A DNA stretch of 30,648 nt from a virus, in the IMG/VR virus record IMGVR_UViG_3300038436_000184, positions 1 through 30,648 of that record; one strand, 5' to 3'. Of this stretch, positions 5,959 to 29,698 are shown one piece after another. A model generated the notes under the pieces. The model was not told where the DNA came from and ran no database searches. It was given only the letters and a program-made list of their open reading frames with translations. The translations under genes were made by a program, and so were the position numbers. Each line of letters opens with the position of its first letter. Positions within the stretch are counted from its first letter, which is position 1.

Positions 5959-6888
5959 TTATAACGAGAACACGAACAGGTTGACCTTCTTCGAGGCTAA
6001 CGCCGCTCTGGCCGCGCCGGTAGTCGCGTACACTGTTACCTTACCGGCCTCGCAGATGACATCCGAGATCGCTTTGTTCGAACCCGGGTCTTCCGCGAAC
6101 GTCGCGAACACGACACCGTCGGCGGTCATATCCGCCACCGCGATTTCTCCCGACGCGTCGGTCGTTTCCTGAGCGATCAGTACCGCGCAGGTGACGATCC
6201 GTTTACCTCCGGCCTTCGGTATCCCGGCGCCTTTTGCCTGCAGGTCGAGGTCGACATCCGCGCCCGCGCCTTCGGCGTAAACTTTTCCGCCGTACACATC
6301 GACCGATTCGGTCCCTTTCGGTTTCAACGCGAGCGGGATATTGGCGTCGGTACCCTTCGCCTCCATGATGTTATCGTTGAGTTCCATCGCCTGCGCGACA
6401 ACAGCGGGATCGTCGGTCTGGATCGCGTCGCCCGCGGTAGTAGGACGAACCGCTAAATCGACGGCGTCGCGGCTCATATCGCCGGATATCGTCTGAGGTC
6501 CGGTTACCACGGGATCAATCAGCCAGCTCACGCCTACCACGACGTCGATAATTTCACCGGCGATGATACCGTTTCCGACCGTTTTCGACAGCGCGGAAGA
6601 ACCGGAAAAATACACCATGTTCCCGATATCTGTCTGCGCGGCGGCGGCTGTCGGGTACTCGAACGGTTTACCGGCCTCGAGCTCGACATGCGAGTCTTCG
6701 CCCGTAGCTCCGGCGTTGTGCTTCGCGATACCCGCGAACCGGTATCCGGCCACATTGTCGCCCTTGCGGGTGTAACCGTCGGTATCGAAACAGGCGATTT
6801 CGTCGGTATCGATACTCTGGTCGGTTGCCATTATTCCCTGGCGTATTTTCGATACGCCGTTCTCACGGTACCGTAAAATCTGCGCCAT
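5959..6888 (-). CDS. Putative capsid decoration protein (DUF2190-like N-terminus)
   Basis: A 309-residue protein between protease/scaffold and capsid genes. Residues ~1-125 (MAQILRYRENGVSKIRQG, then GDNVAGYRFAGIAKHNAG and a TDIGNMVYF segment) resemble DUF2190-type decoration proteins, small beta-rich proteins that stabilise the expanded shell. Residues ~130-309 are an additional repetitive beta-rich region (LALKPKGTESVDVYGGKVYA, DLDLQAKGAGIPKAGGKR) that could be an outward display domain. The longer-than-usual C-terminal part is notable. The ATG overlaps the protease stop as TAATG, after AAGGAGGT. Confidence 0.55.
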   Translation of the reverse strand: MAQILRYRENGVSKIRQGIMATDQSIDTDEIACFDTDGYTRKGDNVAGYRFAGIAKHNAGATGEDSHVELEAGKPFEYPTAAAAQTDIGNMVYFSGSSALSKTVGNGIIAGEIIDVVVGVSWLIDPVVTGPQTISGDMSRDAVDLAVRPTTAGDAIQTDDPAVVAQAMELNDNIMEAKGTDANIPLALKPKGTESVDVYGGKVYAEGAGADVDLDLQAKGAGIPKAGGKRIVTCAVLIAQETTDASGEIAVADMTADGVVFATFAEDPGSNKAISDVICEAGKVTVYATTGAARAALASKKVNLFVFSL

Positions 6889-7322
6889 TACTTACCTCCT
6901 TCGACCGGGGACGAGGGATGGTCGAGAGCGGAGACGGTCTCTTCTTCCTCGGAGAAATCCGCCGGTTCCCCGGGTTTCGCGTTCTTCTTCGTGAACTTTG
7001 GCTCGCCGCTTAAATTCACGACGGAATTCTCCGGGATCATTTCGGCGAAATCCGCGAGCATTTCGTCGACATCCTTCTCGGAAAAGTCGGCGGTCGCCTG
7101 ACGTTCGAGTGTGATGTTCCGCAACATCATTTTAACCCAATCGTCTTTTTTCGCGGATGAGAGACGACCTTTCCCGATCATTTCGCTTTCGGCGAAACTC
7201 GCGATTTTACCGGCGAGAGCGGCGGCATCCTGTTCCGCGATCCGGTCTTTCAGCCCGGTATTCTCGGTTTGAAGGGCAGCCTTATCGCTTTCGAGTTTCG
7301 CGATTTTTTCAGCATCAGTCAT
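6888..7322 (-). CDS. Scaffold protein from an internal start (Mu Z-like)
   Basis: Within the protease gene, a perfect AAGGAGG lies 8 bases before an in-frame ATG (7320-7322). The 144-residue product starts MTDAEKIAKLESDKAALQ, a coiled-coil helix typical of scaffolds. It shares its stop and C-terminus with the protease. Mu makes its Z scaffold by the same internal initiation, so this is the expected design. Confidence 0.7.
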   Translation of the reverse strand: MTDAEKIAKLESDKAALQTENTGLKDRIAEQDAAALAGKIASFAESEMIGKGRLSSAKKDDWVKMMLRNITLERQATADFSEKDVDEMLADFAEMIPENSVVNLSGEPKFTKKNAKPGEPADFSEEEETVSALDHPSSPVEGGK

Positions 7323-8000
7323 GGTATTATCCTCCTTAATCTTATCTTCATCTTGTACTGCGTCAGGTTCCGGGTCGCTGAACGACACTGACGGTTCGCG
7401 GGGAATGAATTCCCGTTTCAGGAATTCGAGGTCGTAATCATTAATCAGGAACTGTCCTTTTTCCGCGCCCTCCTTTTCGATCAGATAATCCCGCAGACGG
7501 CGGAACATATCTCCGACAGTCCACAGACGCGACTGCACCGGATCGAGTTCCGAGAACTCGGCTGTCAGCTCGTCCTCGAAATCCGCGCACTCGGCGTTCT
7601 CCGAGAAATTTACCGCCGCCAGTCCCTTGATCGCGGGAGCCTGAGCGCCGAGAAGTCCCACATGCCGGAGATACCATTTCCCCGGAGCGGGTGAATTCTG
7701 GATATCCGGCGTGTAGAGCGATGCGGATACTTTCTTGTACATACCTTTCCGCACCTGATCCTCGACCTCCGGGACGATATCATCTAATACGCCGAACAGC
7801 TTTTTCCCCGTGACTTCCAGTTTGCCGAACCAGCCGAATGCCGGATCGGCCGTTTTCGGGTGACCGTAAACCAGCGGGGCTTCGAACACTTTTGGATCGT
7901 ACTCCGCGAGTTCAGCGAGAACGTCGTCCGTAATCTCGTATTCCTTCCCGTTCATAGCAGTAAACTTTCCAGTCTTAAGAATTTCTATTCTCTTGGACAT
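6888..8000 (-). CDS. Head maturation protease / scaffold, Mu I family
   Basis: A 370-residue protein matching the Mu I protease family: KFTAMNGKEYEITDDVLAEL, EAPLVYGHPKTADPAFGWFGKL, KKVSASLYTP and LRHVGLLGAQAPAIKGL are characteristic. It cleaves the scaffold and itself during head maturation. The C-terminal half is acidic and helical (scaffold-like). An internal ATG at 7320-7322 preceded by TAAGGAGGATAATACC can produce the scaffold alone, as in Mu I/Z. GGGAGG precedes the full-length start. Confidence 0.88.
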   Translation of the reverse strand: MSKRIEILKTGKFTAMNGKEYEITDDVLAELAEYDPKVFEAPLVYGHPKTADPAFGWFGKLEVTGKKLFGVLDDIVPEVEDQVRKGMYKKVSASLYTPDIQNSPAPGKWYLRHVGLLGAQAPAIKGLAAVNFSENAECADFEDELTAEFSELDPVQSRLWTVGDMFRRLRDYLIEKEGAEKGQFLINDYDLEFLKREFIPREPSVSFSDPEPDAVQDEDKIKEDNTMTDAEKIAKLESDKAALQTENTGLKDRIAEQDAAALAGKIASFAESEMIGKGRLSSAKKDDWVKMMLRNITLERQATADFSEKDVDEMLADFAEMIPENSVVNLSGEPKFTKKNAKPGEPADFSEEEETVSALDHPSSPVEGGK

Positions 8001-8092
8001 TTATAAAACCTCCCTTCGGACGCCGAGTCATGGTATCAAGGCGTTCCTTTTCACTTTTTTTTTATTTCTTCACCTTTCCTATTGACTTTCCG

Positions 8093-8240
8093 ATAGTCTT
8101 GTAGTAGACTATTTGTAGAGCGATTAAGCGATTCGTTTTTCGGGAGAAGGGCCTTGTACCCCGATGATCCCCGGAATTGGCGGGTGGAGACAGGCTCCCC
8201 ATGACTGCCCTCAACGATAAACTTAACCGCTCTTTTTATT
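8093..8240 (-). ncRNA. Candidate structured RNA element between portal-F and protease genes
   Basis: A 12-bp closing helix pairs 8115-8126 with about 8221-8232 (AGAGCG...CGCTCT plus TTAAG/CTTAA). The single imperfect pair is G-U on the minus strand and A-C on the plus strand. Inside lie a UCGUU/AACGA stem and two short GC hairpins, giving a branched shape. An ATAGTCT/AGACTAT hairpin follows at about 8093-8112. The stop codon of the portal-F gene lies in the closing helix. I do not recognise the class. A plus-strand TTGACT-17-TAGACT (8082-8110) is an alternative reading as a promoter for a plus-strand RNA. Confidence 0.45.
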
Positions 8241-11087
8241 TATCTTGTCCATCGCTCCTTTCTTGAAAATCAAATATCCCATCCTGTCGTTATCGATACT
8301 TTTGTTAGGGTAAATTGTCTTCACCGCCGGAATACCTTTGTACTGGTGCACAATGACTTCAACCTGTTTCCCGTTGATCATTTTCATGTATTCGTAGCTT
8401 AAGACCGTCTTCTTCTCCTTCGCGATAAACTGGATATTCATCCAGATTTCGTCCGGGTCATCTAAAATGTTCTCCAATCCGTCGAGCAGTCCCAGACGGT
8501 TCTTATCCTTTTCAATATGGCTGACGAACTCTTTAGGATCAAGGTATACAGGCTTTCCGAGCGCGTTCTCAAAATACGATTTCACCGCAAGTTTCTCCGC
8601 GAGCATTTTTTCACCTGAATTCGCGTCGTACTTTCCAAGTTTCATTTCCGATTCGTAACCTGAGTCCGCGAACTTTTTCAAACCCTTCGCATGCCAGTTC
8701 TCCGTTTCCAAAGGTATCCGCTTAGGTTCGCTTTCCGGTCTGAGTTCTTTCAGCGCTTTCAGCTTCTCCTGTATCCACGCGTCCGATTTCACTTCCGCCG
8801 GGTTGTGATCGAAACCTTCGTCCGGCATCAGGGGCTTCGACGGATCGATATTGCCCGGTACGATCCCCATCTCGGTCAACGTGTCGAGGCGTTCGGCATA
8901 GGACGGTATCCCCGTTCCGAGATTATCCGGGTCGAACCCGAGAGCTTTCACCTGCGACTTTGTCAACGCCCGCACGAAGCACCGGCACCGGAACCCGTTA
9001 GGCGGATACCAAGTCTGCCAGAATACGTCGTCGTGCCTGCGGATCACGCCGTGCATCGCCGCGTGTCCCGGACGGACTCTGTCGTCGCCGACCGTGAACA
9101 ATCCCCAGTACGGCAGAAAGTCCGCGACCTTTTTCATCTGCTCGTAACGCCCGACCGAGTAGGCGGTCTGCAGGTTCTGCAGGTAGGTCAACCGCAGGTT
9201 GTTCTTCGCGAGGATCGCCGGGTCTATTCCGGCTTTGAATTCCTCGTAAGTCTGGCCTTCGGAAAGCGCGACGGAAAGCCGGTCGAGGATTCCCTGCGCG
9301 GTTTCCGCAGACGAAATCCCGCTGACGGCGAACGCGTAGTTCTTCTGTTCCGCAGACAGCAACGCGAAATCGTCAGCAGACATCGCGATCTTGGAAGTCA
9401 TGAACTTCTTCGCGCCGGAGTATTCCATCATCCCGGAGAAACCTGCCCCGAGCGGAGCCGAGGGGTCGGCGAAATCCGCCGTGTTATACCCCGTCACCTG
9501 CCAGCGTCCCAGCGCGTTCATCGTAATGAGCGACCGCGCGAGAAAATCTGACGCCCCGCTGTCATTCTGAGCCTGCCGAAGAATGTCCTTTGTCGTATTA
9601 CCGACCCCCACGATGGGGGAAGTGCCGTCGATGCCATGGATGGCATGAAGACGGCCGGTTTTTACTATTTTTTCCGCCGCTTCGTCGAAATTCGACGAGC
9701 TTTCGATTGCTTCTTTCAGTCCGTTTACGAAACCGTCGAAGTACCCGTAATAATCTTCAAATCCCTTTTCCGCGAGGTCTTCGGCTTCCTGTGCATCGCG
9801 TTCCGCCTCAGCCTCCAGTTCCTGAAATAATGTCAGATTATCCTGTTTACCGGGCTTTTTTTTTTCGGCTCCTACCTGACTTCCTTCGGCGAAGCTCGCT
9901 GTTTTTTCTACCGGCGGAACTACGGATCGTTTGAGTACATCACCCTTCACAAACCCGTATTCGCGCTGGAGATACTCCTCGGACAGATCGTATCCCATCT
10001 GGTATATTTTCAGGTCGCGTTCCGCGCGCTCCGTCTGGACATTAGCTTCCTCGAAAAATTCGAAGACCGGATAATTCCCGACTTGGAAATTCAGGTCTAC
10101 CAAACGCCGGATCAGGCTGTTCATCGTTCCCGAGATCAGGCGTTTATCGCTTTCCTGAATATCCCCCCTGACGGTCTCGGCCATGTTTTCATTGCCGAGT
10201 TTTCCCGGTGTGGAGTCCGCGGTCGCGGAATGTCCGGTGAGAGTTTTCGAGATTGACGCATCCGCCCAATTCACCAGTTCGATAAACATATCCGAGGACG
10301 CTTTTTTATCGACCCCGAGAGTTTCCGGTTTTTCTTCGCCCTCGAACACTCCCGCGCCGGAAGACTGGATTTCGTACAGCATATCGAGCAACTGCCCGCG
10401 TTCGGTATCGCTGAGCGATCTCTGCGAACGGATAATAAGCGGGTCGGTACCGAATTTTTCGATGAACGCGATCCAGAATTTCAAATCGCCCTTTTTAAAA
10501 TGTACCGGCCAGAAACAGCGGGCGAGTTCGCCTTCGCCGTAAGGGTTTCGGTAGCTCGCGCGGTACTGTACCAGTTCGACCTCCCGGTTTAATCCCGTTG
10601 TCACGACAAGATCGCCGTCGGTCGGATTGTTTTCCGATAAGAAACGGAGCCGGTTTTGATTATCGAAGATAAAATTCTCGGCTGGCCGTCCTTCTATAAT
10701 CCCGTAAACAATCCGTTCGCCGTCGCGGGCGAGCACGGTTTCGATGGGAGAATACCCCATCCACACCGCTTCGAGGATGTCGCGGTATAATCTTTCTATA
10801 TTGAGCGCGTTCCATTGCTCGGTAATAAAGTCCATCGCGCGGCGGTCTGCGCCCCGGTTGTTTTTAGCGGGGACGATCCGGTATTCGCACGACATCACCC
10901 CGGCCTCGCGGGACACGATACAGGAATTGACCTGGCTGTCATACGCGAGCTCGCGGAACAGCGATACGTCGGCGCCCTTCGACTCGAGGATTTTATCCGG
11001 GTTCGGGAGCTGGGCGGTCAATTTTAGGAAACCCTGCCAGCTCCTGTCGCGGGTGTAAAGGGATGTAAATTTGTTTTTATCCGCCAT
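8223..11087 (-). CDS. Portal (DUF935, gp29) fused to F-type head protein (gp30) and a PBECR-like nuclease tail
   Basis: A 954-residue fusion; in Mu, portal and F are separate genes. Residues ~1-430 are a DUF935 portal (RDRSWQGFLKL, EYRIVPAKNNR, WMGYSPIETVL, PVHFKKGDLKFW, TSTTL-like SISKTLTGHSAT). A charged linker follows, then repeats R8 and D1 (about residues 476-509, including KDILRQAQND). The middle is an SPP1 gp7/F-type minor head domain ending with the GDDRVRPGHAAMHGVI and PPNGFRCRCFVRAL blocks. The last ~150 residues (ILDDPDEIWMN) resemble phage-encoded PBECR-type nuclease domains. ATG at 11085-11087 follows GAGGAA. A longer TTG start is less likely. Confidence 0.8.
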   Translation of the reverse strand: MADKNKFTSLYTRDRSWQGFLKLTAQLPNPDKILESKGADVSLFRELAYDSQVNSCIVSREAGVMSCEYRIVPAKNNRGADRRAMDFITEQWNALNIERLYRDILEAVWMGYSPIETVLARDGERIVYGIIEGRPAENFIFDNQNRLRFLSENNPTDGDLVVTTGLNREVELVQYRASYRNPYGEGELARCFWPVHFKKGDLKFWIAFIEKFGTDPLIIRSQRSLSDTERGQLLDMLYEIQSSGAGVFEGEEKPETLGVDKKASSDMFIELVNWADASISKTLTGHSATADSTPGKLGNENMAETVRGDIQESDKRLISGTMNSLIRRLVDLNFQVGNYPVFEFFEEANVQTERAERDLKIYQMGYDLSEEYLQREYGFVKGDVLKRSVVPPVEKTASFAEGSQVGAEKKKPGKQDNLTLFQELEAEAERDAQEAEDLAEKGFEDYYGYFDGFVNGLKEAIESSSNFDEAAEKIVKTGRLHAIHGIDGTSPIVGVGNTTKDILRQAQNDSGASDFLARSLITMNALGRWQVTGYNTADFADPSAPLGAGFSGMMEYSGAKKFMTSKIAMSADDFALLSAEQKNYAFAVSGISSAETAQGILDRLSVALSEGQTYEEFKAGIDPAILAKNNLRLTYLQNLQTAYSVGRYEQMKKVADFLPYWGLFTVGDDRVRPGHAAMHGVIRRHDDVFWQTWYPPNGFRCRCFVRALTKSQVKALGFDPDNLGTGIPSYAERLDTLTEMGIVPGNIDPSKPLMPDEGFDHNPAEVKSDAWIQEKLKALKELRPESEPKRIPLETENWHAKGLKKFADSGYESEMKLGKYDANSGEKMLAEKLAVKSYFENALGKPVYLDPKEFVSHIEKDKNRLGLLDGLENILDDPDEIWMNIQFIAKEKKTVLSYEYMKMINGKQVEVIVHQYKGIPAVKTIYPNKSIDNDRMGYLIFKKGAMDKINKKSG
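9448..9463. repeat. REP-like repeat, family B, inside portal-F
   Basis: Contains CCGAGCGGAGCCGAGG, read in-frame as part of a SAPLGAGF segment. The same sequence and frame recur at 17834-17849 (SAPLGN) in the radical SAM gene. Confidence 0.6.
9561..9590. repeat. REP-like repeat, family D (inside portal-F)
   Basis: Contains GTCATTCTGAGCCTGCC followed by GAAGAATG, the widespread CATTCTGAG...GAAGAATG palindrome. It reads in-frame as DILRQAQND. A relative lies at 19623-19649. Confidence 0.7.
9602..9655. repeat. Bipartite palindromic element R8 (inside portal-F)
   Basis: Hairpin 1 pairs CCCCCA 9605-9610 with TGGGGG 9614-9619. Hairpin 2 pairs GCCGTC 9624-9629 with GACGGC 9650-9655, with inner ATGCCAT/ATGGCAT. 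It is read in-frame (GTSPIVGVG) in the portal-F linker. Confidence 0.88.
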
Positions 11088-21063: not shown

Positions 21064-22017
21064 CTACAATAAACCGGCGTTCGCGTGGTCGATCACCTTG
21101 ATTTCCAGACCGCGATTATTGAGCGCCATCAGACGCTGGGTGCGGATCATCAGGTTCACGAGCTTCCGGGCGTTCGCACCGCTGGCCTTATGGAAATGAT
21201 TGATGATCGAGTCGTTCGCGTCGAACACGGATTTCACCAGCATACTCGTGTCGTCGAGGTTCAGCGGCGGTATCTGGACGCAGTCCATCCGGCTGAATAC
21301 CTGCCGGTACCTGTCGCTGACGCTGGATATCATTTTTCTCAGTTTTTCAAGGCCGACCAGCACGAGCGGTACGTCCGCCTCGTCGAAAATCCGTCGGAGA
21401 ACGTCGAGAGCTTTGACATTGAGATAATCCGCCTCGTCCACGATAATCATCTTTCCGGTTCCGGTGAGCTTGGTCACGATATTGTCGAATAGAACGTCTT
21501 TCGATCCGCTCGACTGCATGCCGAGTTTGTCGGCTATCTTCCGCAGGATCGTGCTGTCCTTGAACGTGGGATTGACTTTGACTAATAACGTCGTCGCCTT
21601 ATGTTCCCGTTCGTAATACGCGAGTGATTCCGATTTCCCCAATCCTGCGTCGCCGATGATCACCTTGATCATCTTATCCGACTGGGCTATTTCGAGGAGG
21701 TACATGAAATTCTTAAAAACGCTGGTCGTCTGAAAATCGGGCCGTTTGAGCGAAATCCGGTCTTTCGTCCGTTCTCGTTCGACCACGTCGAGCATCGCCG
21801 TCACTACCTTTTCAACGTCGCCCTTGTAGGTATCGCTCAAGACCTGGCTGACTACCGACGACGACAGACTGCATTGGATGGCAAACTGGTTTTGTGACAT
21901 CCCGCGTCCGTCGATAAACGCGGCGATTTCCTTGACGCGAGCCTTAAGTTTCTCTTTCGGCGTTTCAGGATCGAGCACTGGAATCTCGAACCTGTCGTCA
22001 TTCTCAAAATCCGTCAT
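21064..22017 (-). CDS. MuB-like transposition ATPase
   Basis: A 317-residue AAA+ ATPase that in Mu selects target DNA and activates the transposase. The N-terminal helix-turn-helix (SQNQFAIQCSLSSSVVSQVL, residues 41-60) corresponds to the MuB N-terminal DNA-binding domain. Walker A is GDAGLGKS (122-129), Walker B KMIIVDEAD (189-197), and a later SVSDRYRQVFSRMDCVQI fits the sensor region. The family's usual length is 310-320. R12 abuts its ribosome site and it lies directly after the transposase gene. Confidence 0.88.
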   Translation of the reverse strand: MTDFENDDRFEIPVLDPETPKEKLKARVKEIAAFIDGRGMSQNQFAIQCSLSSSVVSQVLSDTYKGDVEKVVTAMLDVVERERTKDRISLKRPDFQTTSVFKNFMYLLEIAQSDKMIKVIIGDAGLGKSESLAYYEREHKATTLLVKVNPTFKDSTILRKIADKLGMQSSGSKDVLFDNIVTKLTGTGKMIIVDEADYLNVKALDVLRRIFDEADVPLVLVGLEKLRKMISSVSDRYRQVFSRMDCVQIPPLNLDDTSMLVKSVFDANDSIINHFHKASGANARKLVNLMIRTQRLMALNNRGLEIKVIDHANAGLL

Positions 22018-22103: not shown

Positions 22104-24149
22104 TCAAAACGGTGAATCTTTCAAATCATCTTCCTTCTCTTTTATTTCCGGCGTTTTCTCTTCCAGCGCGTTGACCGCGATCATCGTGTCGAAGCCCGCG
22201 ATCCGGGCGGTGATAGATTCCTCCGCCCTGATAATCTTGAGTTTATCGCGTTCGAGGCGTTTCCGTTGCGCGAGTTGCTCCATGTCCTGCGGTTCTCCCG
22301 GTTTATAGTAAGCCACCGGCGGAATATAATCCGCGATACAGATCAGTTCACCGCCGGAGCGCGTGGTCTTGCCGTCGGGGTGTTTTTTCTTGCTCTCGGG
22401 GACGAAAACGTACATTTTCGTCAAGTCGTCCCGGTCGAGTCCGATCTCTACCGTCTTTTTCTGCCATTTAATTAAAATAGGGTTGTCGTACCACCGCTCA
22501 TCCCACTTGACACCGTTTTGCTGGACGACGCGGGTCAGGCCGCGATGCAGTTTGTAGAGCGCGAGCGTTTCTGAAGGAATTTTCCGTAATTCGCGCCGCG
22601 AGATCCCGTCGCGCCACACTTCGACCGGCATTTTCCCGTTCATCCCGGCGCCGTTCGACGGTGTGCGGTTGTATTCTTCGATCACCGCCTCGAAGTACTC
22701 GGTCAGTTCGTCGAGACTCCAGAGTTTCGACGGGTCGGCGAGGACGGAGGGCAGGCGTTCCGGCTTCTCCGCTATCGAGTTTCCGCCGTAAGTCGGCACG
22801 AACCGGGTCCCATAGTTGTTCAGCACGTTCCAGAACGGCTCGACCGGTTTCGCCTTCGCGTTGTACGGAAGCGCCCAAATCACATTCACCCCGAATCTTC
22901 CGAACGCTCCGGTTACCTGTCCGTGATCGGCGATTTCGTTCAGCGCAAAACCGTCGTCGTCGCGGAAGAACCGCGTTTTATTCATCTTGTTCCGGCTGAT
23001 CCCCATCGTCTGCTTGTTCTTGTACGCCTTACCGTTGTCGAGGTAAATCGTATCCGGCACGCCGTAATTCCCGATGCCCTTCGCGAGCGCGGAAATCACC
23101 GCTCCGGTATTCTCGTGCAGGTTGATCGACCAGCCCGTTATCATCTTTGATCGTAAATCCATAAAGACTACGATGTTCGGACGAACCTTGCGGTTCGGTT
23201 CGTACGGATGCCGTACCCAGCAGTTCAAACGGTGGCCGTCGGAGTTCCAAATCTGATTAATCTCGAGCGTAAGCGGGTCGCGTTCGACATACCCGGTACA
23301 GGAGTCTTTGAACATTTTTCCTCCTTCCCTATGGTATACATCCGAAGCGAAGCAGGATTGACTCCTGACGTAGCGGAGGATCGTGTCGTAACTCGCGTAC
23401 GACGACATCACCTCGCGTTTACATTCCGCGATATCGACAGCCGAACGTTCATCTCCGGCTTGTCGCAAAGTGAGTTGTCTCAGCTTCGCGAGCTCCTGCG
23501 CTTTAAGTTCACAAATTCTGTTGTAGATCGTCTGTATACGAAGTCTGCTTTGATCGCGCCAAAGCCGTAGGATTGTCTCACGATCCTCTGCAGGGATGAT
23601 CGTTTGCCCCTTCCGTTTACCGTAAGCGGTCAACAGTCCGCGAATCCCGGATGCCTTGTACGCCGCGTTCCAGCGTTGGAGTGTGCGGGGTGAAAATTTC
23701 CCGACTATTTCACGGGTCTCCTGCGGAATCATGTCGTCCAGCATCCCCGCGGCGTAATTCCTCGTCCAGATTTCGTGGAGTTTCGAGACGTTCTTTCCGT
23801 TATAACTCGCATCGAGATAACGGTTAAAGTATTGCAGTACCGCGAGACGGGCGAACGCGATTTCCCTCTGCCACGCGGGCTGATCGAGCATGGCGTCGTC
23901 TTTCTTTGTCTCGAGAAGTTCTGCGCTCCTGGCGAGCGCGAGCTTGTCGCGGTATTCGGCGGGAAGGCTGTCGATACGGATAGCGAGGGTTTTTCCGCCG
24001 CGTCCGCGCCCTTCGATCCGGGCGATTCTCCAGTTTTCACGCTTCGCGAGCGTCCTGATCCATTCCGAGGATCGCCCAACCGCGTTCGAAAGTTCTACTG
24101 GAGACACATATTCCCGTCTGAGTTCTTTCAGCTCCGGTAACCTTCTCAT
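22104..24149 (-). CDS. DDE transposase, MuA family
   Basis: A 681-residue transposase that inserts and replicates the phage. An N-terminal Mu-type DNA-binding domain (SPVELSNAVGRSSEWIRTLAKREN, residues 16-39) is followed by further helical end-binding regions. The catalytic RNase H-like core has D304 (IWNSDGHRL), D371 (IYLDNGKAY) and E437 (KPVEPFW), the DDE triad in order. The C-terminal Mu-transposase domain continues to a charged tail (RAEESITARIAGFD, then KEDDLKDSPF) that in Mu contacts MuB and ClpX. Length is close to MuA (663). Confidence 0.93.
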   Translation of the reverse strand: MRRLPELKELRREYVSPVELSNAVGRSSEWIRTLAKRENWRIARIEGRGRGGKTLAIRIDSLPAEYRDKLALARSAELLETKKDDAMLDQPAWQREIAFARLAVLQYFNRYLDASYNGKNVSKLHEIWTRNYAAGMLDDMIPQETREIVGKFSPRTLQRWNAAYKASGIRGLLTAYGKRKGQTIIPAEDRETILRLWRDQSRLRIQTIYNRICELKAQELAKLRQLTLRQAGDERSAVDIAECKREVMSSYASYDTILRYVRSQSCFASDVYHREGGKMFKDSCTGYVERDPLTLEINQIWNSDGHRLNCWVRHPYEPNRKVRPNIVVFMDLRSKMITGWSINLHENTGAVISALAKGIGNYGVPDTIYLDNGKAYKNKQTMGISRNKMNKTRFFRDDDGFALNEIADHGQVTGAFGRFGVNVIWALPYNAKAKPVEPFWNVLNNYGTRFVPTYGGNSIAEKPERLPSVLADPSKLWSLDELTEYFEAVIEEYNRTPSNGAGMNGKMPVEVWRDGISRRELRKIPSETLALYKLHRGLTRVVQQNGVKWDERWYDNPILIKWQKKTVEIGLDRDDLTKMYVFVPESKKKHPDGKTTRSGGELICIADYIPPVAYYKPGEPQDMEQLAQRKRLERDKLKIIRAEESITARIAGFDTMIAVNALEEKTPEIKEKEDDLKDSPF

Positions 24150-24201: not shown

Positions 24202-24250
24202 TTCCAGGAGAAAGTATGACTCAATTGACCGCCATCCTTTCTCTTTCCTT

Positions 24251-24291
24251 TGCCGCCGGGGGAGTCGAACCCCCGTTATTACCGTCGCGGC
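24251..24291 (-). other. tRNA-like minihelix F2
   Basis: Identical over 41 nt to F1 (778-818): outer stem GCCGC/GCGGC, an 11-nt bulge, and a 6-bp T-arm with TTCGACT loop. It directly abuts repeat R13. Confidence 0.65.
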
Positions 24292-26763: not shown

Positions 26764-27246
26764 ATGGGTGACGAGAACAAGGATGTTCAGATCAATTACG
26801 GAGTGAAGATCAAACAGATCAGGCAGATATGGAGATTAAGTCAACAAGGATTGGCTGATAAAATCGGAATGTCTTTACCAAATATATCCCGTTATGAAAC
26901 TGGAAAGTATCAGCCTGATATAAATTTCGTAAAAGATTTGATCTTCAAACTGCACGTCAATCCGCTCTGGTTTTTCATGGATCAGGGTGACGCGATTGTA
27001 GACACGGAATTTCAGCTTCAGGACGAGTTCGAGGACTTGCTGGAGAAATTCCGCGACAATTACGCGCTCCAGCAGTTGTTCTCCCAGGCGATGACGTTAA
27101 ACAGAAAGGATGAAGAGTATTTCTACAAATGGCAGGGTCTGCTCTATGGGATGAAGGAAATACTCGGCGGAATGAAGACGGAAAGGCAGTCTGTGGTGGA
27201 TAAACAGAGGAAAGAGGAAGCGGAAAAAGCTAAGGAAAAGAAATAG
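26764..27246 (+). CDS. Phage repressor, XRE-type
   Basis: A 160-residue XRE/cI-like protein expected to bind operators in the adjacent region and keep the prophage silent. The helix-turn-helix spans residues ~13-60 (KIKQIRQIWRLSQQGLADKIGMSLPNISRYETGKYQP). The C-terminal part has a FEDLLEKFRDNYALQQLFSQAM helix and a lysine-rich tail, with no LexA-type protease motif, so induction is probably by antirepressor or other cofactor rather than RecA. AGGGGA precedes the ATG. The gene is opposite to the early operon, as in Mu. Confidence 0.8.
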   Translation: MGDENKDVQINYGVKIKQIRQIWRLSQQGLADKIGMSLPNISRYETGKYQPDINFVKDLIFKLHVNPLWFFMDQGDAIVDTEFQLQDEFEDLLEKFRDNYALQQLFSQAMTLNRKDEEYFYKWQGLLYGMKEILGGMKTERQSVVDKQRKEEAEKAKEKK

Positions 27247-27256
27247 GAGGAAAGGG

Positions 27257-27811
27257 ATGAAGAGAGCGGGATGGATCGTAGTATTTTCTATTATAATGTT
27301 CGCTTTCATTGGGCAAGGATTTTGTACCGTAAAAACTGAACTACAGTTTCAGCTACAAGAAAAGGCTTTTTTAAACTCGGAAGGTATAAAAACCATTTCG
27401 GAAATGCTTTCGGATGTTTCCTTTGAAGAAAAGATGATGCTTTATTCTACTTATAAGAGAGACGATGCGTATAATGGATTCTATCTCAATTGTGTTCTTC
27501 CGGGATTGGGCATCGGAAACTATGTTATTGGAGATACTCAAGGTGGCACGATAACATTAGTTGGCACATTGGTTTCATGGGCCGTATTCCTTGGAAGTTA
27601 CGGCTTAGCATATACTACTTTCTCTCGGCCGATTGTAATAGGTATGGCAATAGCCGGAGGTGGTGGCGTATTATTTTTTCTCTTCAGAGGAGTCATAAGT
27701 CCTTTTACCTATGTTGATAATTATAATAATCAACTGAAAAAAGCACTTCTTATGGGGAATATGGTTTTTGATGATGTTTTTCACGCAGATTTGATATCAA
27801 TCAGTTTCTAA
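27257..27811 (+). CDS. P13-like membrane protein, lysogenic conversion candidate
   Basis: A 184-residue protein with an N-terminal signal sequence (RAGWIVVFSIIMFAFIGQGFC), then a soluble helical part, then LNCVLPGLGIGNYVIGDTQGGTI and two hydrophobic segments ending PFTYVDNYNNQLKKAL. The LPGxGIGxxxxGDxxGG block and the Y-N-N-Q-L ending resemble the P13 family of spirochaetal membrane proteins. It follows the repressor by 10 bases with GGAGGAAAGG, so it is probably co-expressed in the lysogen. AT-rich. The family match is moderate. Confidence 0.55.
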   Translation: MKRAGWIVVFSIIMFAFIGQGFCTVKTELQFQLQEKAFLNSEGIKTISEMLSDVSFEEKMMLYSTYKRDDAYNGFYLNCVLPGLGIGNYVIGDTQGGTITLVGTLVSWAVFLGSYGLAYTTFSRPIVIGMAIAGGGGVLFFLFRGVISPFTYVDNYNNQLKKALLMGNMVFDDVFHADLISISF

Positions 27812-27897: not shown

Positions 27898-28668
27898 TCA
27901 GGACTGTGTCGTAATGGCGGCGATACGTTTATCCGGCCAACAATCCTTGATGAGATTATAGAGCGCGCGGACTATCTTGTCGGTGCCCCGGTAAGACGAT
28001 AGAATTCTCCAATCCTGCTCGTTCCTGACCGAGCAGTACTCGGAAAAATATTCGCGGAACTCACCGAAAGCCTCGTTCATTTGAGGCGATAGTCTGACCG
28101 CGCCCTTCTTTTTCAGTATCTTCTTTAAAATGGAAATCACCATGTCAACAATCTCCCCGTCACGGTCGGTCGTAATCGAATCCCTTATGGAATTCAGGAT
28201 AATTTCGTTCTGGCGGGTGAGTTGGGAAAGAAAGCGGATAAGATTGTCCTCGAACCGTCTCTTTTTCGCGCCCGGTAACAGGTCTTTGATCCTCTCTTGG
28301 AGACGCTCTTCTTTCGCGACGGATAACCGCCGGTATTCCTTCTCCACGGCGATAAAATAACGCCTGACTGCGCGCCCGGCTTCGTTACTCTCTACCATTG
28401 CGAGTTCTTTCGCCATATCGAGGGATATGATGTAGTCGATCACCTCACGGCTTCTCGAACTACCGCCCTTTGCCCGGATTATCTTGATAAATTTATCAAC
28501 ATAATAATCCTTACCTTTCTCGAATCCGTATTGCTCGATTCTGTTCTTGATCCAGTTTGCGAATTCCTGTTTACTGCCGAGTTTCTTCCAAAGATCGCGA
28601 GCGTTGACAGTTTTTTCAACCGATTTTCCGATCTTGTTCTCACGGATCGCGATATCGAATTTCTCCAT
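27898..28668 (-). CDS. AntA/AntB-type antirepressor-like protein
   Basis: A 256-residue protein. Residues ~18-115 match the AntA/AntB domain: VNARDLWKKLGSKQEFANWIKNRI, YGFEKGKDYYV, then VIDYIISLDMAKELAMVESNEAGRAVRRYFIAVEKEYRR. Such proteins bind or counteract phage repressors. The C-terminal half (residues ~116-256) is helical and unrelated to known antirepressor C-terminal domains I can name. It lies on the minus strand between plus-strand accessory genes and faces away from the 28769 promoter. Its own promoter probably lies around 28669-28745. Confidence 0.75.
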   Translation of the reverse strand: MEKFDIAIRENKIGKSVEKTVNARDLWKKLGSKQEFANWIKNRIEQYGFEKGKDYYVDKFIKIIRAKGGSSRSREVIDYIISLDMAKELAMVESNEAGRAVRRYFIAVEKEYRRLSVAKEERLQERIKDLLPGAKKRRFEDNLIRFLSQLTRQNEIILNSIRDSITTDRDGEIVDMVISILKKILKKKGAVRLSPQMNEAFGEFREYFSEYCSVRNEQDWRILSSYRGTDKIVRALYNLIKDCWPDKRIAAITTQS

Positions 28669-28752: not shown

Positions 28753-28835
28753 TTTCCGCGCAAACGCCTTGACTTGTGCCGCACGCCAAGCTAATGTGTG
28801 TGCATCAAAGACGAGGAGAAAGACGATGACGAAAA
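28753..28835 (+). repeat. Duplicated promoter-leader module, copy 1
   Basis: An ~83-bp segment running from TTTCCGCGCAAACGCC through the promoter, leader, GAGGAG ribosome site and first codons (ATGACGAAAA). Copy 2 is at 29140-29223 with only a few differences. Confidence 0.8.
28769..28797 (+). promoter_or_regulatory. Promoter of cassette 1
   Basis: TTGACT at 28769-28774, a 17-bp spacer, and TAATGT at 28792-28797, with a short leader before the gene at 28826. Confidence 0.6.
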
Positions 28836-29044
28836 AGCAGAAAGATTTCAAGAAGGACTGGGCGATGGTCGGCGGCCGGATTCAGGATTACGCCTACACG
28901 GCGGTGCAGAAAAGCCCGCGCGAAGCCTCCCGCGAGATCGAACGCGACTATACCGGACGGATGGCGCGCATGGTGTGGAACGGGTTGAAAATCTATCTCC
29001 GGTACGGCGTAGGAGCCTACTTCTACGGGATAGACGCCGCCTGA
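28826..29044 (+). CDS. 72-residue cassette 1 protein, unknown
   Basis: A small basic protein (MTKKQKDFKKDWAMVGGRI, then REIERDYTGRMARMVWNGLK and a C-terminal YLRYGVGAYFYGI segment). Unrecognised. The start at the ATG after GAGGAGAAAGACG is supported by the second cassette, which has the same leader. A rho-independent terminator follows at 29068, so the gene is a single-gene unit. Confidence 0.6.
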   Translation: MTKKQKDFKKDWAMVGGRIQDYAYTAVQKSPREASREIERDYTGRMARMVWNGLKIYLRYGVGAYFYGIDAA

Positions 29045-29067
29045 AAGCCCCAAACGATAGAATTTAA

Positions 29068-29089
29068 GCCCCGCGAAAGCGGGGTTTTT
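29068..29089 (+). terminator. Terminator of cassette 1
   Basis: CCCCGC (29069-29074), a GAAA tetraloop, GCGGGG (29079-29084) and TTTTT. Strong. Confidence 0.85.
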
Positions 29090-29139
29090 CTTTTCTTACT
29101 TCATATTCGGCAATAAATTAAGAAAAATAGTTTTCGTCA

Positions 29140-29223
29140 TTTCCGCGCAAACGCCTTGACTTGTCCCTCGAAGCCAAGCTAATGTGTGTGCATCAAAGAC
29201 GAGGAGAAAGACGATGACGAAAA
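29140..29223 (+). repeat. Duplicated promoter-leader module, copy 2
   Basis: Second copy of the 28753-28835 module, ending at the first codons ATGACGAAAA. It differs by a few changes in the promoter spacer, including one inserted base. Confidence 0.8.
29156..29185 (+). promoter_or_regulatory. Promoter of cassette 2
   Basis: TTGACT at 29156-29161, an 18-bp spacer, and TAATGT at 29180-29185. Confidence 0.6.
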
Positions 29224-29441
29224 CAAAAATAACGCCCCCCAGAGCCGAGAGTTTTTTGAAGCGGAAAGCCGATCTCACTGCGATGCTAAAACGGCTGACT
29301 AAGGGTGTCGCGGCATACGGCAAAGGCAATGAAGATTATTACGGAAATTTCGACGATCTGAGCTATATCGGAGAAATGATAAAGCGCGCCTCGGATTTCC
29401 TGTTTCAGGAGGGCGAAAACGCCCCGGAGAACAGGGCTTAG
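29214..29441 (+). CDS. 75-residue cassette 2 protein, unknown
   Basis: A small charged helical protein (MTKTKITPPRAESFLKRKAD, later KGNEDYYGNFDDLSYIGEM). It shares only the first codons and leader with cassette 1; the bodies are unrelated. A strong terminator follows at 29501. Unrecognised. Confidence 0.6.
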   Translation: MTKTKITPPRAESFLKRKADLTAMLKRLTKGVAAYGKGNEDYYGNFDDLSYIGEMIKRASDFLFQEGENAPENRA

Positions 29442-29500
29442 TCATTCATTTTCAAATCACCCCGCCGGATCGACGCCGTGTAAAAAAATCATAAACATAA

Positions 29501-29526
29501 GCCTCTGCGAAAGCAGGGGCTTTTTT
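29501..29526 (+). terminator. Terminator of cassette 2
   Basis: GCCTCTGC (29501-29508), a GAAA tetraloop, GCAGGGGC (29513-29520) and TTTTTT. Strong; one U-G pair fits the plus strand. Confidence 0.85.
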
Positions 29527-29538
29527 ATGCGGGGCGAT

Positions 29539-29616
29539 ACCCGAACCTGTGAGGGTGAAGTCCCGCGATGCCAGCTTGTCTTCCGCGAAGGCGGGAGAGG
29601 ATGGCAAGGAGCGGGA
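29539..29616. repeat. Bipartite palindromic element R15 (divergent)
   Basis: Outer stem TCCCGC 29561-29566 with GCGGGA 29611-29616, inner ATGCCA/TGGCA, plus an extra arm (TCCGC...GGCGGGA) as in R11. Hairpin 1 is weak (ACCC/GGGT). It lies downstream of the cassette 2 terminator, outside the main minus-strand operon. Confidence 0.6.
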
Positions 29617-29698
29617 TTTCTTTGCGCAGAAGATTCCGTAAAAAAAGCGGCCTCTCGATTGGCATATATATAGGGGAAATAAAAAATCGGAGGCTATT

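Follow-up and report, generated by a model that had tools for sequence, protein, structure and literature searches.

Paired single-gene cassettes behind a common promoter in a Mu-like phage of a spirochaete-type bacterium: probable operon duplication with complementary gene loss

The phage and its cassette locus

The window analysed here is the whole of a 30,648-base virus record (IMG/VR IMGVR_UViG_3300038436_000184), and is a Mu-like phage of a spirochaete-type bacterium, with a Mu-type transposase gene (22104–24149), a MuB-like ATPase gene (21064–22017) and further phage genes on the minus strand. The closest relative found is a sister phage, IMG/VR contig 3300007351_000039 (L005; also L007, L016 and L035), which is present with 99.99% identity in a Brevinematales MAG as well (L006, JAGVBZ010000048.1). 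The transposases of the two phages are 61% identical, and a transposase search for further sister phages returned none beyond this one. The sequence common to the viral and MAG contigs stops at L005 11193, the end of the MAG contig, and the window ends at the corresponding place, so the two cassettes described below probably lie 1.1–1.9 kb from the probable left end of the phage. On one side of them is an AntA antirepressor gene on the minus strand, on the other a pair of small HTH genes; the antirepressor and a gene for a Borrelia P13-like membrane protein (27257–27811, 37% G+C) stand between the cassettes and the presumed main repressor (26764–27246). The sister phage has two different genes (L005 8212–8994) in this slot between repressor and antirepressor. 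The features of the locus are as follows.

27898–28668, minus strand: AntA-type antirepressor (Pfam AntA, 5.6e-24), divergent from cassette 1; same place in L005
28753–28835, plus strand: promoter module copy 1, with -35 TTGACT (28769–28774), 17-nt spacer, -10 TAATGT (28792–28797), Shine-Dalgarno GAGGAG (28813–28818) and start ATGACGAAAA
28826–29044, plus strand: ORF1, 72 aa; first three codons (MTK) apparently from the ORF2 start, the rest homologous to ORF1 of L005 (58%)
29066–29087, plus strand: intrinsic terminator 1, CCCCGC GAAA GCGGGG with T tail
29140–29223, plus strand: promoter module copy 2, with -35 (29156–29161), 18-nt spacer, -10 (29180–29185) and Shine-Dalgarno (29201–29206)
29214–29441, plus strand: ORF2, 75 aa, PHROG 14596 family; 70% identical to ORF2 of L005
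29467–29483, plus strand: putative remnant of a second ORF1 copy, from its 3' end (GGATCGACGCCGTGTAA; ..R-I-D-A-V-stop, compared with ..G-I-D-A-A-stop), the match continuing through terminator 2
29499–29522, plus strand: intrinsic terminator 2, GCCTCTGC GAAA GCAGGGGC with T tail; aligns with the terminator after ORF1 in L005
29699–29932, plus strand: small HTH protein of XRE type, paralogous to the one that follows; no separate gene in L005
30028–30267, plus strand: small HTH protein of XRE type; conserved in L005, where it directly follows the operon

A first-pass annotation, made from the letters of the window, had described a module of about 83 bp duplicated nearly identically, and this holds: 28753–28835 and 29140–29223 are 95% identical over 83 nt (blastn E 9e-34). 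The repeat consists of a 51-nt perfect part (28785–28835 = 29173–29223), which takes in the final part of the spacer, the -10, leader and GAGGAG, and also the gene's first ten bases, and a 45-nt upstream stretch that is 84% identical. Since it reaches ten bases into both genes (ATGACGAAAA), the first three codons of both ORF1 and ORF2 are derived from the repeat. In both copies TTGACT and TAATGT are followed by GAGGAG, a 7-nt gap and ATG; the spacer between the two hexamers measures 17 nt in copy 1 and 18 nt in copy 2. The -10 is a fair consensus match (3/6), which explains why a generic promoter scan listed neither site. In alignments with the sister phage and with a further phage contig, 3300038436_000169, the spacers are again 17 and 18 nt, their length being kept while their sequence drifts, which would be the pattern expected of a sigma-70 promoter. 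The GAAA-loop terminators of the first-pass annotation were both listed by the same generic scan, as hairpins with T tails at 29066–29087 and 29499–29522. At the level of sequence, each gene has a promoter and a terminator of its own, as a moron does; a deviant composition, which is often seen in morons but is not strictly required, is absent, the cassettes having 50.3% G+C and the window 52.2%.

Several other features of the surroundings were observed. The two HTH genes are in tandem and look like paralogues, with one counterpart in L005, perhaps a second local duplication in the region. An Rfam scan gave a tRNA match only. A two-hairpin repeat of about 63 nt is dispersed over the minus strand of the window (711, 1832, 2122, 2718, 4529, 4920, 5884, 9592, 15341, 16221, 18241, 24281 and 25640); its stems vary yet stay paired, with changes on both sides in 7 of 13 pairs, and in at least six cases the repeat closes with a ribosome site of the GGAGG type, a start codon on the minus strand following within a few bases. 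We take the repeat to resemble the start-associated sequences of cluster K mycobacteriophages, and the copies that lie inside open frames (9592, 18241 and 25640) presumably resemble Rickettsia palindromic elements. A related, strongly folding stretch (z -5.9) lies between cassette 2 and the HTH genes (29553–29620), and copies of it with 80–90% identity occur in three other Brevinematia genomes. Finally, a 45-nt pair with 98% identity (774–818 and 24247–24291) reads on the minus strand as the T arm and 3' terminus of a tRNA gene would, and each of its members adjoins a copy of the dispersed repeat.

The two proteins and their relatives

The description of the products as unrelated small proteins is borne out, ORF1 (72 aa) and ORF2 (75 aa) having no relation to each other. 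Both look like real genes under purifying selection, because third codon positions carry an excess of the changes between the window and L005 (by codon position, 19/18/36 in ORF1 and 17/12/33 in ORF2) and dN/dS is low (about 0.24 for ORF1 and 0.12 for ORF2, with about 0.20 for the neighbouring HTH gene). Across 393 Spirochaetota genomes, ORF1 and ORF2 genes were found only in the host MAG of the sister phage itself.

Three relatives of ORF1 were found beyond the window, in L005 (58%) and, at about 35%, in contigs L008 and L009. In L008 a type IIG restriction-modification enzyme (6676–9822; PADLOC E 0) adjoins the ORF1 cassette. In L009, a Mu-like phage, the stretch 9820–9870 has a palindrome, TTAGCGAATACGCTAA, upstream of the ORF1 relative, beside a TTGACTT box and near the repressor gene; the upstream region was considered as a further copy of the promoter and rejected, as it has no promoter homology beyond the -35. 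The AlphaFold2 model of ORF1 has five helices at fair confidence (mean pLDDT 81), and that of ORF2 is a helical hairpin at low confidence (mean pLDDT 67). Searches of Pfam, NCBIfam, PADLOC and PDB sequences gave no significant match for either protein, and ORF1 had no significant match in PHROGs and no phage hit. Foldseek returned nothing below E 1 for either; the best matches were, for ORF1, the Mu transpososome (PDB, E 3) and, for ORF2, generic hairpins of helices, including Acb2/Tad1 hairpin proteins (E about 3), and both were disregarded. Family, fold and defence-library searches found no link of either protein to defence, anti-defence or toxin–antitoxin functions, the family searches yielding evidence neither for nor against an anti-defence role.

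ORF2 does match PHROG 14596, a family of unknown function, over residues 12–70 (59 residues, most of the protein; E 1.2e-5, and 3.4e-6 for ORF2 of the sister phage). The family comes from Roseobacter phages RDJL Phi 1, RDJL Phi 2 and RDJL6, Ruegeria phage Tedan, Janthinobacterium phage Donnerlittchen and Pseudomonas phage phiH2. In Donnerlittchen and phiH2 the relatives come first in a series of small genes that leads up to DNA polymerase, and in the RDJL phages the relative opens a two-gene insert on the opposite strand, whereas ORF2 of the window occupies a single-gene cassette.

Origin of the paired cassettes

In the same place, between the same antirepressor and HTH genes, the sister phage carries a single operon, promoter–ORF2–ORF1–terminator, so that its gene order is the reverse of that in the window. 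Its promoter is intact, and 94 bases upstream lies a second, decayed copy (L005 9837–9873), which has 11 nt inserted ahead of the -10 and lacks a gene of its own. In the window, the 99 nt that follow ORF2 align with the ORF1 tail and terminator of L005 with a score of 37, reached by none of 2000 shuffles (mean 17, sd 2.3). When this stretch was scanned over all of L005 on both strands, the ORF1 tail and terminator came first (37, the next 26), and over the rest of the window the first place went to the window's own ORF1 tail and terminator (34, the next 26). The terminator hairpin contributes part of the score, the coding tail alone scoring 27, which was reached by 1 of 2000 shuffles. This match indicates that the ancestor of the window probably had ORF2 followed by ORF1, as L005 does. 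At the other end, the first codons of ORF1 in the window are identical to those of ORF2 and unlike those of ORF1 in L005, which suggests that ORF2 was removed in the other copy and ORF1 fused to its start.

The explanation we consider probable is therefore a tandem duplication of the promoter–ORF2–ORF1–terminator unit followed by complementary gene loss, leaving moron-like accessory genes that probably act on the host early. The ancestral unit, retained by the sister phage, would have been duplicated in tandem. In copy 1, a deletion reaching from directly behind the first ORF2 codons as far as the ORF1 start would have removed ORF2 and left ORF1 to be read from the promoter, ribosome site and first codons of ORF2; in copy 2, nearly all of ORF1 would have been lost, its last codons and terminator staying behind ORF2. 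The outcome would be two monocistronic cassettes with the same promoter, predicted to be of sigma-70 type and independent of the main early operon. Duplication with complementary deletion appears to be the simplest reading and would cover every part of the present layout. Against it, a single close relative is known, and the ancestral order rests on that one outgroup and the remnant. In addition, the two promoter cores show 100% identity over 51 nt, whereas the remnant has clearly diverged from the ORF1 tail of the window; the duplication may be of recent date, its remnant having changed fast, or it may be old and followed by gene conversion. It may also have occurred before the window and L005 split, since L005 keeps a second, decayed promoter copy.

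The same present-day arrangement would result if no operon had been duplicated and ORF1 had instead moved upstream and taken a copy of the ORF2 promoter, the old ORF1 then being lost. The sequence of terminator 1, which differs from that of terminator 2, agrees with such a promoter capture, but relocation, promoter copying and loss are all needed where one duplication and two deletions suffice, and cassette 1 has a terminator after ORF1, as duplication of the whole unit would give. We regard this course of events as unlikely.

A repeat kept as an operator, its two copies matched to a phage repressor, would be compatible with the duplication. Upstream of the -35, AAACGCC is common to both copies in the window and CAACCTA to both in L005, and L005 keeps its second copy with a broken promoter. 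Likeness within a genome is, however, also expected from recent duplication or gene conversion; the spacing between conserved blocks is variable by one base, which is how a promoter behaves; and the module occurs at these two places in the window only, being absent at the repressor and the early operon. A role as operator is accordingly rather improbable.

Mobility, payload and possible function

The first-pass annotation compared the modular plan to morons or anti-defence islands in which new small genes are exchanged behind a common promoter. An identical promoter in front of unrelated proteins with their own terminators invites such a reading, as does the occurrence of the promoter with ORF1 alone in another phage. 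Two scans of IMG/VR with the promoter pattern, however, led to four contigs: the sister phage, one phage with an ORF1 relative (3300038436_000169) and two unrelated contigs. In the latter (L003 and L015) the match leads to a different gene or sits inside a coding frame, and both were set aside as chance, so that listing the genes behind the promoter, as had been proposed, turned up no payload other than ORF1 or ORF2. Both of these genes recur in the sister phage, and what is left of ORF1 behind ORF2 is accounted for by deletion and not by replacement. A slot in which small genes are swapped behind a common promoter thus has little probability, less than that given above to an operator, and the appearance of exchange is explained by duplication. 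The annotation had contrasted exchange with a simple old duplication in which the two proteins always stand in fixed order; the duplication is supported, whereas the order differs between relatives. No relative with an empty cassette site was found, both close relatives carrying the genes. As a place for real payload exchange, the slot between repressor and antirepressor is a better candidate than the cassettes.

The self-contained cassette, the other part of the moron comparison, fares better. In contig 3300038436_000169 the ORF1 relative stands alone behind a related promoter and is followed by its own terminator, and this phage is otherwise almost unrelated to the window, the only matches being ORF1 and one other small protein. 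The likeness of the promoters survives shuffling with both hexamers fixed, being reached by 3 to 22 of 5000 shuffles, and the only occurrence of the pattern in the 3.2-Mb host MAG is the one in the phage. For these reasons the promoter and ORF1 have probably moved between phages as a unit acquired horizontally; what moves would seem to be a fixed pair and not a promoter with changing payload.

Phage morons are accessory loci whose expression does not depend on the rest of the prophage (PMC7067206, PMC6469090). The window resembles them in its single small genes with their own promoter and terminator near the lysis–lysogeny control region, and in a promoter–ORF1 unit common to an otherwise almost unrelated phage; it differs in the ordinary G+C content of the cassettes and in a doubled promoter that would stem from operon duplication. 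Mu-like phages of Pseudomonas aeruginosa have accessory regions (PMC4378225), and in phage Fc02 a 7.9-kDa exclusion gene adjoins the repressor (PMC9936078). Common to these phages and the window are small unassigned ORFs, mostly of 34–100 codons, which in a transposable phage lie chiefly in the left arm, in the neighbourhood of repressor and antirepressor. No sequence relation to ORF1 or ORF2 was found in them, ORF2 matching only the PHROG 14596 phages, and their variable genes differ between phages, whereas the window and L005 keep the same pair.

An anti-CRISPR-type locus, with acr genes followed by an Aca-like HTH regulator, is suggested by the small proteins behind a promoter and the HTH proteins of 77–79 aa that follow on the same strand. 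This layout is its sole support: the HTH proteins have no NCBIfam Aca match, a terminator separates them from the small genes, and the one known host genome of the sister phage, a MAG that may be incomplete, has no cas1 match. We consider such a locus very unlikely. Least probable of all is a toxin–antitoxin or other obligate two-protein pair, as the sharing of one operon in L005 might suggest, because each protein occurs without the other, contrary to the constant association of a type II pair (ORF1 without ORF2 in L008 and L009, records that may be incomplete, and ORF2 relatives in phages where no ORF1 was found), and neither has a family match.

The gene runs of the PHROG 14596 phages offer a hint of function. 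Because ORF2 relatives head runs leading to DNA polymerase in two phages, ORF1 and ORF2 probably act on the host early in infection, through take-over or counter-defence, and not only in the lysogen. Host take-over or counter-defence is put first among their possible functions, with low confidence. It could be speculated further that the small helical ORF1 proteins form a new family of phage proteins, carried between otherwise unrelated phages together with a characteristic promoter of their own and directed against a host defence, and that splitting the operon gave separate control of ORF1 and ORF2 dosage, but the chance that all of this holds is small.

The locus illustrates how a layout of one promoter before different genes, which invites a story of gene swapping, can come from a single operon duplication with complementary loss. 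Searches of Pfam, PHROGs, NCBIfam and the PDB gave nothing significant for ORF1, which represents a family of small phage proteins that apparently moves along with its promoter; ORF1 and ORF2 offer a tractable pair for the study of early host-control functions in the little-studied phages of spirochaetes.
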